Shown: piece after piece, positions 18,952 through 31,483 of the stretch
How positions within the stretch are numbered: position 1 is the first letter of the stretch
Layout of the letters: every line of letters starts with the position of its first letter
Source of the DNA: a virus
Direction: 5' to 3' (one strand)
Virus record (IMG/VR): IMGVR_UViG_3300012270_000010
Span: 1-34,481 of that record
DNA: 34,481 bases
Notes under the pieces: model-generated
Told to the model about the DNA's origin: nothing
Databases searched by the model: none
Seen by the model: the letters and a program-made list of their open reading frames with translations, nothing else
Made by a program: the position numbers and the translations under genes

Positions 18952-18991
18952 AGTCTAATGTAGTTAGTAGTTTGTATAAATTTTCGACCAA

Positions 18992-19109
18992 TCAGCTCAA
19001 TGTGGGCTGAGTCCTGGAAGTGGTGAGTGCGTACAACGTAGAGCTTACTTTTCGAACTGTAGCCTCAATTCGTAAGAAAATGTGATTTGTGCACTACCAC
19101 TTCCAGGAC
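18992..19109 (-). ncRNA. long-hairpin intergenic element, candidate RNA
   Basis: The arms 19091-19109 and 19011-19030 pair over 19 bp with a single bulged base, enclosing a 60-base loop that itself has a CTTAC / GTAAG stem. Directly 3' on the - strand is a 7-bp hairpin (18992-19010, TCAGCTC / GGGCTGA with one wobble). There is no T-run. It fills the gap between the winged-helix regulator and the acidic low-complexity gene. Confidence 0.55.
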
Positions 19110-19119
19110 CCAACCGGCA

Positions 19120-19356
19120 TTACTGCAACGGTTTAAGGATCTTTATCGACCTGCGTCGATAGGGTTCCTTCTCCAGATATCCTAGCACGCAAAGATCCTC
19201 GATCACCCGGTAGGTGTGTCGAAGGGTCAGCTTGATACCTTTAGAGATTTCCTCCATCTCAGGGGCTATGATATTTTTCGAAGTATATTTTTCAACGAAC
19301 CGGTAAGCCTTGATGTGAGCCGGCTGTAAATTTATTTTCTCCTTTGCTTTTTTCAT
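19120..19356 (-). CDS. winged-helix DNA-binding regulator
   Basis: A 78-residue protein resembling the N-terminal HTH of LexA/MarR-type regulators: HIKAYRFVEKYTSKNIIAPEMEEISKGIKL, then LRHTYRVIEDLCVLGYLEKEPYRRRSIKIL as recognition helix and wing. No effector or protease domain is present. The start at 19356 is chosen because a TTGACG-17-TACAAT promoter ends 7 bases before this ATG; the in-frame ATG at 19374 lies in the spacer. It may control itself and other promoters with the same TGAC repeats. Confidence 0.7.
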   Translation of the reverse strand: MKKAKEKINLQPAHIKAYRFVEKYTSKNIIAPEMEEISKGIKLTLRHTYRVIEDLCVLGYLEKEPYRRRSIKILKPLQ

Positions 19357-20801: not shown

Positions 20802-21263
20802 TTAATCAATTTCGTGGAATGTGGATTCGTCACAAGCCGCACATCCTTCATCCAGTCCAGCTACTCCTTTGCAGATTTGGCACGTTCTTTCTTCTAACTC
20901 CTTATTACTAATTTCTTTTTTGTTTTTTATAAATCCAAGTGGATCTTTACGATACTCTATCAATTCAAGTTCCTCCGGAGTCGGAGGCTTTGGTGGCTCG
21001 ATAGTTGGATTGAATAGTTCATCCATCTTTTTAACGAGGTCCCGGTAGTAACTGGCCCCGGAATCTCTATCGACCATATACTTTCCAGCTGTCGGCCAAA
21101 CGTTCACCAGCAAATTGCTGTCTTGCTTTCTCACATGTAGGTGCCAGGGAGATTTGACCGTGACTTTATAGCCAGCACGTGAAAGGTTGTTGCGATCGTA
21201 ATATGTTGGAGCAGGGAGTTTGGGTCCTCTGCTACTACTGTTTCCTACTTCTTTAAAACTCAT
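20802..21263 (-). CDS. hypothetical protein with C-terminal zinc ribbon
   Basis: The 153-residue protein has an N-terminal strand-rich region (AGYKVTVKSPWHLHVRK, LLVNVWPTAGKYM), a proline-rich linker (PPKPPTPEEL) and a C-terminal C-x2-C-x9-C-x2-C zinc ribbon (CQICKGVAGLDEGCAAC). A promoter ends 6 bases before its ATG, so it is probably the first gene of a leaderless mRNA that also carries the helicase. Possible DNA-binding helper; not recognised. Confidence 0.7.
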   Translation of the reverse strand: MSFKEVGNSSSRGPKLPAPTYYDRNNLSRAGYKVTVKSPWHLHVRKQDSNLLVNVWPTAGKYMVDRDSGASYYRDLVKKMDELFNPTIEPPKPPTPEELELIEYRKDPLGFIKNKKEISNKELEERTCQICKGVAGLDEGCAACDESTFHEID

Positions 21264-21269
21264 ACGAAA

Positions 21270-21297
21270 AGTATATCAGATGTCATTTATATGTCAA
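21270..21297 (-). promoter_or_regulatory. leaderless promoter for the zinc-ribbon/helicase pair
   Basis: -35 TTGACA (21292-21297), 16-base spacer, -10 TATACT (21270-21275), then 6 bases and the ATG at 21263. A 27-base stretch (21280-21306) matches 30467-30493 at 24 positions, so both promoters probably bind the same regulator. Confidence 0.8.
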
Positions 21298-21302
21298 TGT
21301 TA

Positions 21303-21348
21303 TAAGCTGCCGGGGGATTCGAACCACCGGCTAGTACCATACAGCTTA
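21303..21348 (-). ncRNA. tRNA-like minihelix at the 3' end of an mRNA
   Basis: On the - strand a perfect 7-bp acceptor-like stem (TAAGCTG / CAGCTTA) is continuous with a 7-bp T-arm-like stem with one mismatch (CCGGTGG / CCCCCGG) and a canonical 7-base T-loop TTCGAAT. An 11-base connector containing GG replaces the D and anticodon arms, as in tRNA-like domains of tmRNA. Its first three bases are the TAA stop of the upstream gene. No CCA is encoded. Confidence 0.6.
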
Positions 21349-21897
21349 ACCAGCTGGTGTTGCCGGTGTTTCAGGAGCCTTTGGAGCTTCTGGAGTAGTT
21401 GGAGCTGTTGCTGTTGCAACGGCAGCTTCTGGAGTAGTAACTGGTACTACTTCTGGAGCTGGTCCATCTACGGTAGGTTCTGCTGAATCACTTGGAGATG
21501 GTGAAGCATCAGCGACTTCTTCGCCAACTTCTTCAGTGTCCAATTCAGCAAGCTGAGCATTAAGCTGAGCTCGACGTTCTTCAATCTTTGGTTCTGGCAA
21601 GTCCGGTTCAACCTCGAAAGGTTCTTCGATCTTGTCTTCCAACTTAGCAGCTGCTACTGACCTCTGGGCGATGAGGAAATCATCACCAACGAGCTTAGTG
21701 CGCTGACTTTGAAGATCCATAATGTAGTTGAAGGCTCCAACTACAATCTTGACGTGCACAGCCTCTTTGCCATTGAAATGGTTGTTGAGGAATTTGTGCA
21801 AGTCTCGGCCGAGCGCCTGGATCTGTACCTTGTCATCTTTGGTGACAGGCCAGTTGTCCTGTGGATTTTCTGGGGGTCTTTGGTTTTGTGGGGGCAT
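21346..21897 (-). CDS. hypothetical protein with disordered Thr/Pro/Ala tail
   Basis: Residues about 20-85 form a compact helical region (IQALGRDLHKFLNNHF, VHVKIVVGAFNYIMDLQ). After that come acidic stretches (FEVEPDLPEPKIEER) and a low-complexity tail of Thr, Pro, Ala and Glu to residue 183. No family recognised. The stop codon is the first codon of the tRNA-like stem. The tail resembles those of the SSB-like protein and of the small acidic protein at 18793. Confidence 0.65.
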   Translation of the reverse strand: MPPQNQRPPENPQDNWPVTKDDKVQIQALGRDLHKFLNNHFNGKEAVHVKIVVGAFNYIMDLQSQRTKLVGDDFLIAQRSVAAAKLEDKIEEPFEVEPDLPEPKIEERRAQLNAQLAELDTEEVGEEVADASPSPSDSAEPTVDGPAPEVVPVTTPEAAVATATAPTTPEAPKAPETPATPAG

Positions 21898-25805: not shown

Positions 25806-25830
25806 ATTAGTTTTGGCAAGACTTAAATAA

Positions 25831-25980
25831 TTTATTGACGGGGAAGGCCCCTACCATCGGTGAAGAGGATTCGAACCTCATCCGACCCCTGGGAGCGCTC
25901 TACCAACTGAGCTACAGAATCCCGCTTAACGCAGCCACTGGTGGGACTCGAACCCACGCCATCTCTCCCCCGTCAATAAA
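25831..25980 (-). ncRNA. tRNA-arm cassette closed by a 13-bp inverted repeat
   Basis: On the - strand, TTTATTGACGGGG and CCCCGTCAATAAA close a 150-base segment. In order it contains a perfect T-arm (GTGGG-TTCGAGT-CCCAC), then a perfect D-arm preceded by TA and followed by G and CTCCC (GCTC-AGTTGGTA-GAGC), then a second T-arm-like hairpin (GAGG-TTCGAAT-CCTC). No intact acceptor stem or anticodon arm can be drawn in the normal order. CTCCC is complementary to GGGAG near the 5' end, which allows a circularly permuted reading. Confidence 0.5.
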
Positions 25981-26033
25981 CTATGATGAACTCATCTCAG
26001 CATTGTACACACGTGTCAGTCTTACGACAAATT

Positions 26034-30581: not shown

Positions 30582-30732
30582 TGTATATAGCATCTGGACC
30601 GGGATTAATACGCGCATATATATTGAGGTCCAGGAATGGCCGCGGGCCGTCGATCCTGGCGGCGTGGTGGTGTTGATCCTGTTGTTACTGTGGGCCGGTA
30701 GGCTGTTGGCTTGTGGCCTTGGTGGCTTGTAA
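30541..30732 (+). CDS. doubtful small membrane protein
   Basis: A 63-residue frame whose second half (EVQEWPRAVDPGG then VVVLILLLLWAGRLLACGLGGL) is GC-rich and looks like a short membrane helix, unlike the AT-rich surroundings. The first half overlaps the TTAAATGTCA boxes and has no ribosome-binding sign. It may be a real short gene, or a relic. Confidence 0.3.
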   Translation: MSLYRVGITFIKCHVYSIWTGINTRIYIEVQEWPRAVDPGGVVVLILLLLWAGRLLACGLGGL

Positions 30733-30860
30733 TAGATTGCTTGAGACGTGCAAAGGAATAAGAGACAAGTATTTATATAGGTATTATGCTGTTTTGTAAT
30801 AGATTGCTTGAGAGACAAAAAAGAATAAGAGACAAGTATTTATATAGGTTTTTTAGTGTT
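30727..30860. repeat. two tandem 67-bp iteron-like repeats
   Basis: Both units begin TTGTAATAGATTGCTTGAGA and share a 26-base block starting GAATAAGAGACAAG; they differ mainly in a 9-base middle part and the last 12 bases. A partial third unit begins at 30861. Confidence 0.9.
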
Positions 30861-31134
30861 TTGTATTAATTAAAGTATATATTTTCTATATAAAGTGGTC
30901 TATATAAAAAAGAGTACAAAAAGGTATATATTATACAATTATTTATATATACGTCAATAGGTTATATTTAGAGCCGTTTTTGTATGTTTATTATAAGAAA
31001 AGTTTTTTATTTTTAAAATGTGCTTTTATTCTTACAAATTGAGTATATATAGTATATAAAGCCTTGTTTATTATTCTTTTTTGAGTAAAAAGGAATCTAT
31101 TACAAAACAGCATAATAACTATATAAACACTTGT
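30765..31134. repeat. 45-bp inverted repeat spanning the AT-rich tract
   Basis: Positions 30765-30809 and 31090-31134 are reverse complements at 42 of 45 positions. They could form a large hairpin or bind an initiator in opposite directions. Confidence 0.88.
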
Positions 31135-31483
31135 TTGCTATTGATTGTTTAAAAACTTGTATTTTATTGATTAAATAGGAATCTTTTACAAGTTGCACGC
31201 AAGCGCGATAAAGGGCTGGAGTTGTCAAGGCCCCAGGAAACACTAAAAAAGCGCCTTGCTTACCTTTTCAACGCTTTGAACAGTTCCGAATGTATTACAA
31301 GGTGGCACTCTAGTACCTTTTAACTATTACAAGGTGCTTAGAATCGATTGTGTGGCCTCGATATCGAGGGCAATGGCTCATATTGTGCCGATTGTGAGCC
31401 AATAGAATGGGGACCGGCTCAGCTGGTCCAGGTGGTGCGCGTGTATTGTGGCCATGTCAAAAGGAATCACGCGCGTGAGTGTG

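Follow-up and report, generated by a model that had tools for sequence, protein, structure and literature searches.

A tRNA-like minihelix on a stop codon

Does the RNA at the end of one phage gene, where the stop codon forms the first bases of a tRNA-like fold, take part in expression of the phage genome, or is its likeness to a tRNA accidental? The DNA analyzed (below, the window) is the whole of a 34,481-base IMG/VR virus record from an uncultivated phage, which carries genes for terminase, tail, helicase and primase. The element occupies 46 nt of the minus strand, from 21348 to 21303, and reads 5′-TAAGCTG TATGGTACTAG CCGGTGG TTCGAAT CCCCCGG CAGCTTA-3′. The features of the locus are listed below; alignment A2 is described in a later section.

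21346–21897, minus strand: upstream gene (ORF), 183 aa, C terminus rich in Pro, Thr and Ala
21349–21299, minus strand: minihelix, comprising an acceptor-like stem that overlaps the stop codon, an 11-nt connector and a T-arm
21346–21348, minus strand: TAA stop codon of the upstream gene (columns 2–4 of alignment A2), its third base being position 1 of the acceptor-like stem
21342–21346, minus strand: 5′ strand of the acceptor-like stem, AGCUG in the family register (alignment A2, covariation, family model)
21331–21341, minus strand: 11-nt connector UAUGGUACUAG, a stem-less D-loop; the family consensus is AAUGGUUCnnG with an invariant GG
21324–21330, minus strand: 5′ strand of the T-stem, CCGGUGG (alignment A2, covariation)
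21317–21323, minus strand: T-loop UUCGAAU (sequence, alignment A2)
21310–21316, minus strand: 3′ strand of the T-stem, CCCCCGG, with one U·C mismatch to 21326
21305–21309, minus strand: 3′ strand of the acceptor-like stem, CAGCU (alignment A2, covariation)
21301–21304, minus strand: discriminator-like U followed by the tail AUA; the family consensus is N-C-N-A where a tRNA has N73-C74-C75-A76
21270–21297, minus strand: strong promoter-like site TTGACA-16-TATACT, directly 3′ of the minihelix, as if for the 153-aa ORF
20802–21263, minus strand: downstream gene (ORF), 153 aa

A sequence-only reading of this DNA had described a perfect 7-bp acceptor-like stem, a T-arm with a canonical TTCGAAT loop, an 11-base connector in place of the D and anticodon arms, and the TAA stop of the upstream gene as the first three bases. 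The perfect outer stem is indeed present, on the minus strand (the reading had named no strand), two outer UA/UA pairs beyond the family register bringing it to 7 bp, and the TAA ends the 183-aa ORF. The T-loop is as described, but the T-stem contains a U·C mismatch (21326 with 21314), and the connector, though of the length given, is not a simple replacement of the D-arm but a stem-less D-loop with an invariant GG.

The locus is not a full tRNA: ARAGORN called 0 genes, the Rfam tRNA model had no match at 21.3 kb, and neither a cloverleaf nor an anticodon arm is present. What looks like a D-arm farther upstream (CAGCTGGTTAAGCTG) belongs to the last part of the coding sequence and lacks D-stem pairing. 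Nor is it an intrinsic terminator, the element being followed by AUAACAUUG with no U-run and being absent from the terminator-like sites. No family match was obtained for the product of the upstream or the downstream gene. The −10 part of the promoter-like site (TATACT) ends 6 nt upstream of the ATG of the 153-aa gene, whose mRNA would be leaderless if this site is used.

Conservation in the nearest relative

Taken alone, the shape of the window minihelix is only moderately surprising, since 4 of 300 dinucleotide-shuffled versions of the window (1 in 75) contained the same geometry (T-loop, at least four of five T-stem pairs, 7 perfect outer pairs and a connector of at most 20 nt). Folding of the minihelix strand by itself is likewise unremarkable (z −1.2).

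Protein comparison with 2.9 million viral contigs returned only one close relative, G001 (IMGVR_UViG_3300031697_000015). Over the 46 nt it differs from the window at four positions. Three of these lie in the connector and the fourth at the U·C mismatch; no pair, outer-stem base or T-loop base is lost, and the other stem and loop positions are unchanged (34/34). Third-codon identity in the flanking coding sequence is 0.60–0.76, and the connector is identical at 8 of 11 positions. These figures suggest constraint on the minihelix between the two phages, and the 46 nt contain no compensatory change between them. Since the T-stem mismatch is present in both relatives, the window minihelix may be a weakened member of its family. 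A longer fold, in which CACCGGC pairs with the T-stem, is broken in G001. This phage also has an additional gene of about 135 codons inserted between the promoter-like site and the 153-aa gene.

Pairing and covariation in a phage-borne family

Because protein comparison gave a single close phage, the family had to be sought by RNA letters. A pattern for the T-arm hairpin retrieved three unrelated virus contigs in addition to G001. The third of these, L075, contains three minihelices with differing stems, each built on a TAG stop, two of them being CGCCTA AATGGTTCTC GCCCGG TTCGATT CCGGGC A TAGGCG and GCCTA GACGGTCTCCG GCCCGG TTCGACT CCGGGC A TAGGC. A scan with the letters of connector and T-loop as the only anchors (ATGGTTCN{4,10}GGTTCGANTCC) yielded at least 120 stretches, or at least 104 distinct sites. 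The connector of G001, AAUGGUUCAAG, is identical in L101, L104, L106 and L118. In this first set, conservation of the anchored bases is by construction, since the sites were found by a sequence pattern; that pattern is silent on the outer stem, so pairing could be tested without bias. Of the 104 distinct sites listed, 59 combine a T-stem of at least 4/5 pairs with a closing stem of at least 5 pairs, whereas 3.4 are expected after 3′ flanks have been swapped among the sites, and stem sequences differ throughout the 59. Among the matches listed, 23 sites share the spacing of the window; they form on average 8.8 of 10 pairs, compared with 4.7 after swapping of flanks.

A gapless alignment of 18 rows (A2) gave a covariation score of 0.91, compared with 0.20 when shuffled and at most 0.19 when slid. 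Model R1 was built on A2, whose rows included the window and G001, and gathered the 62 elements of alignment A3, from which both were left out. In A3, 98.5% of cells are paired (58.6% expected), both sides of a pair are changed in 247 cells (59 expected from shuffling), double changes occur at 11 of the 12 pairs, and covariation reaches 0.885 (0.167 shuffled, at most 0.152 slid). Since A3 was fitted to a model, the exchange of flanks is the cleaner test of pairing. The sequence-only reading had named a lack of compensatory changes in related phages among the grounds for abandoning it; the double changes in these 62 elements of other phages show the opposite.

Model R2, made from A3, scored 51.7 bits on G001 (E = 6.6e-12) and 45.2 bits on the window (E = 4.6e-10) and had no other match of note in either genome; its independence of these two phages concerns its rows and not the way in which the rows were gathered, although the anchors-only scan alone would have brought in most of these rows in any case. 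Other loci from phages and genomes, 409 kb in all, gave 28 bits at best. Under stricter filters, matches with E ≤ 1e-4 occurred in only three of 397 bacterial genomes, and the family is therefore essentially phage-borne. The window has the 12-nt acceptor/T stack and T-loop UUCGANU of the family, with one T-stem mismatch, as well as its stem-less D-loop with GG (UAUGGUACUAG). As judged from these comparisons, it is conservation in G001 together with the independent family-model match that lifts the window minihelix above chance, the elements of unrelated phages being decisive.

The letters GGTTCGAATCCCCCGG alone were rejected as a family marker, as many of the 31 contigs found with them turned out to hold ordinary or odd tRNAs. 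A single form of the minihelix, GGGAGT..ACTCCC, is nearly unchanged in six contigs (L085 5715–5768, L119, L127, L145, L148 and L162).

Anatomy of a minimal tRNA mimic

In its structure, the family is a minimal tRNA mimic consisting of an acceptor/T stack, a reduced D-loop and an N-C-N-A tail. From T-loop to discriminator the 3′ strand measures 12 nt, as in tRNA (5 of T-stem and 7 of acceptor), and the D region is inserted at a break 5–7 pairs up the stack. The family connector, AAUGGUUC(nnG), resembles a D-loop (A14-R15-Y-G18-G19-...) without its stem. Its GG is kept in all 15 elements that were not selected by the anchor pattern and in all 12 elements of Mycobacterium phage Indlulamithi.

Downstream of the T-loop, in 76 elements, nt 13 is A or U, nt 14 is C in 56, nt 16 is A in 51, and nt 15 is C in only 7. 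Both tail letters, C and A, stand at this one distance in 44/76 elements, which makes the pair frequent and not universal. The tail thus copies a CCA end minus its middle C, position 75 being rarely C. In the window and G001 the tail is U-A-U-A and departs from N-C-N-A. A G·U at the third acceptor pair was seen in 0 of 62 elements; with this, no CCA and no tmRNA call, tmRNA was rejected as an identity for the elements.

One Indlulamithi element (L203 5596–5649) seems by eye to possess a real D-stem and thereby connects the minihelices with tRNA-like genes that lack the anticodon arm. About 18 distinct phage genes of the latter kind with at least 6 acceptor pairs were found by a separate pattern (L012 1566–1623, L013, L014, L015, L018, L022, L023, L029, L034, L037, L039 and others). 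They have a full acceptor stem, a D-arm and a T-arm, with 8–18 nt where the anticodon arm would be, and several score 46–49 bits as Rfam tRNA yet cannot decode.

Placement between genes

An ORF of at least 60 codons ends within −12 to +6 nt of the stem start in 45 of 76 elements, compared with 5.6% of random places on the same strand. The commonest stop offsets are −2, which is that of the window (TAA, 21348–21346), and −3. The annotated genome of phage Indlulamithi carries its 12 elements in a single 8-kb block (34.7–42.7 kb); eleven start 6–13 nt past an annotated CDS end and the twelfth 135 nt past, and most end 35–46 nt upstream of the next start. Within this block every junction with a gap above a few bases carries an element, except gp49/gp50, and overlapping gene junctions have none. 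In Corynebacterium phage PSonyx, one element lies on the gp122 stop and another directly after gp92, in front of an RtcB-like ligase.

The idea put forward from the sequence, that an mRNA ends in a tRNA-like domain, therefore holds as to the domain, given the covariation and the placement at stops (45/76; 11/12 in Indlulamithi), and needs refinement as to the end: the minihelix is intercistronic, and the downstream RNA begins with it as much as the upstream RNA ends with it. The family probably acts as punctuation between genes of many unrelated phages.

The other two contigs retrieved by the T-arm hairpin pattern, L073 (3459–6910, minus strand) and L074, contain 9–10 identical T-arm hairpins between small genes. 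A near-identical module follows each of about ten small genes there, running from the T-arm hairpin to a CCCCATTAGGGG hairpin, GATGAAGGGAGAAA and the next start codon. A weak match to manA RNA (30.9 bits, gathering threshold 55) lies close to several minihelices in L101 (2738–2973, minus strand).

Proposed processing at stop codons and competing explanations

Bacterial RNase P recognizes a 12-bp acceptor/T stack, a shape that is its classical minimal substrate, and reads ruler, elbow and C74. The comparisons above establish the fold, the D-loop/T-loop signature, the 12-nt ruler, the tail, the placement at stops, the many copies per genome and the membership of the window minihelix, whereas docking, cutting, the enzyme and the benefit are inferred. 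We give a probability of about 0.5 to the reading that an enzyme able to read the elbow and acceptor stack of a tRNA, RNase P foremost, recognizes the minihelix in phage mRNA and cuts by the stop codon. The connector GG would dock on the T-loop in three dimensions, like G18-G19 on U55-C56, in an element lying at or a few nt from a stop between genes of a single transcript. RNase P, the best candidate, would then cut just 5′ of the stem, by the stop codon, separating the cistrons and leaving the downstream piece capped by the minihelix; a cut by RNase Z after position 73 would complete processing, presumably to the benefit of the phage. Protection of the 3′ end and recruitment of RNase P or RNase Z, as proposed from the sequence, are plausible roles. 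A cut just 5′ of the stem adjoins the stop codon and falls within it in members with offset −2, so nonstop mRNA could result.

The tail carries the main point against RNase P. The enzyme normally contacts C75 together with C74, and the rarity of C75 weakens this contact; the window itself has AUA instead of C-N-A. The rare C75 also speaks for a product that stays outside translation. Features that overlap with those read by RNase P are also read by RNase Z, TruB/TrmA, the CCA-adding enzyme and SmpB, all of them live rivals for the part of the reader. More tentatively, we envisage that many unrelated phages have independently spread a covarying, minimal tRNA mimic as general gene-end punctuation, with host tRNA maturation cutting polycistronic mRNA at stops and the C-N-A tail barring the product from translation.

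Loss of C75 is easier to accommodate if the element is never cut, as a roadblock or cap does not need an exact CCA. A compact tRNA-like knot could halt 3′-to-5′ exonucleases behind the stop and stabilize the upstream mRNA, or could stall or insulate ribosomes at the stop. The fold is compact and stable and the elements stand directly after stop codons, as such a role asks; however, a plain hairpin would suffice for it, and the exact 12-nt ruler, the invariant D-loop GG, the T-loop and the tail C and A are left unexplained, which makes us regard this explanation as unlikely.

A decoy or docking site for an elbow reader that does not cut, i.e., SmpB (by mimicry of tmRNA), TruB/TrmA or the CCA-adding enzyme, is to our mind similarly improbable. 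At stop codons, such a site could hold off tmRNA or bring in a factor. The architecture is nearest to the tRNA-like domain of tmRNA, and G3:U70 and CCA are both absent, so that no aminoacylation of the minihelix is expected. The T-loop GUUCGAUUC agrees with the T-arm consensus that the T-loop modifying enzymes TruB and TrmA read; these enzymes, however, do not need an exact N-C-N-A tail.

A role at the DNA level, as an attachment site, a relic of an earlier insertion in a tRNA gene or a promoter-adjacent operator, is very improbable. The 3′ ends of tRNA genes are common att cores (PMC9897764), and a promoter-like site lies directly downstream of the window minihelix. Against such a role, a tyrosine-integrase domain was found in neither the window nor G001, the 20-mer GGTTCGAATCCCCCGGCAGC occurs in 0 of 84,980 genomes, and the spacing between minihelix and −35 box shifts by 3 nt between the relatives. 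Compensatory changes across the family indicate selection on pairing, which also speaks against it. An attP in a tRNA gene, which calls for an integrase and a host tRNA with an identical 3′ end, was rejected on the first two of these results. No T-run or T enrichment follows the 76 elements, which are thus not ordinary terminators. Finally, a chance hairpin with a resemblance to a T-arm, though its shape by itself arises in the shuffles (4/300), is scarcely credible, as it is contradicted by the independent family-model match (E = 4.6e-10) and by conservation of the window minihelix in G001.

Relation to known RNAs

No Rfam 15 family reached its gathering threshold at the minihelix in the window. 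Six member loci, compared with the whole of Rfam at E ≤ 1, showed weak matches only, the T-arm being at best a tmRNA fragment (13.4 bits), and the tmRNA model scored at most 13–15 bits on T-arm pieces. A search of mostly open-access papers found no description of the minihelices, so an earlier one is possible. By these comparisons a covarying minihelix without anticodon or D-stem, present in many copies at phage stops, appears to be a new RNA family, while tRNA mimicry and tRNA punctuation are already known kinds of device.

The tRNA-like domain of tmRNA (RF00023) shares the acceptor stem, the T-arm, a stem-less D-loop, the lack of an anticodon arm and a position inside a longer RNA. Unlike it, the minihelix has no long P2 helix, mRNA-like part or G3:U70, and ends in C-N-A rather than CCA. 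Punctuation of transcripts by tRNAs is textbook knowledge for mitochondria. Like the tRNAs of animal mitochondria and the MALAT1 mascRNA-type 3′ ends, the phage elements are tRNA-shaped, lie between genes or at an RNA end and would be cut by RNase P and RNase Z, but they are minihelices and not tRNAs and overlap or adjoin a stop codon. The bacterial Y RNA YrlA (RF02553) and other phage Y RNAs are also tRNA-mimicking noncoding RNAs of bacteria and phages; in YrlA, T-arm and D-arm form a permuted module carried by a long stem and encoded near Ro, whereas the minihelix is unpermuted and part of an mRNA, and a TROVE domain is found in neither the window nor G001. D-armless and armless mitochondrial tRNAs (e.g., PMC12221289, PMC4013460) are similarly reduced, with arms missing, but keep an anticodon and decode, whereas the minihelices have no anticodon. 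Mycobacteriophages also have short intergenic repeats in many copies, the 17-bp palindromes of Cluster O and the start-associated sequences of Cluster K (PMC4351075), which, in contrast to covarying tRNA-like structures, are DNA palindromes or start-linked and invariant in their letters.

If the preferred reading of processing at stop codons is correct, compact punctuation between phage genes, often on the stop itself, would add a new layer to phage gene expression and provide a minimal processing signal ready for use. The family shows how little of a tRNA (elbow, 12-nt stack, tail C and A) suffices for some cellular machine, whose identity is directly testable in laboratory phages, and accounts for T-arm fragments that tRNA finders pass over in phage genomes.

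Other structures in the window

A second, different tRNA-like RNA is encoded at 25820–25994 (minus strand), nearly identical in G001, with a promoter-like site upstream. A T-arm, a capped acceptor-like hairpin and a D-arm, in permuted order, are enclosed together with another T-arm in a 20-bp closing stem (z −3.5). Its match to Rfam YrlA is 30.7 bits (E = 0.006, gathering threshold 69), and a Ro/TROVE gene to accompany it is found in neither the window nor G001; it looks like a divergent phage Y RNA. At 18990–19130 (minus strand) lies a very long noncoding hairpin with near-perfect pairing (z −7.3, −61 kcal/mol). The AT-rich noncoding region at 30720–31150 contains a 67-nt stretch copied in tandem and an inverted repeat of 90 nt with 83% complementarity, and is possibly a replication origin or control region.
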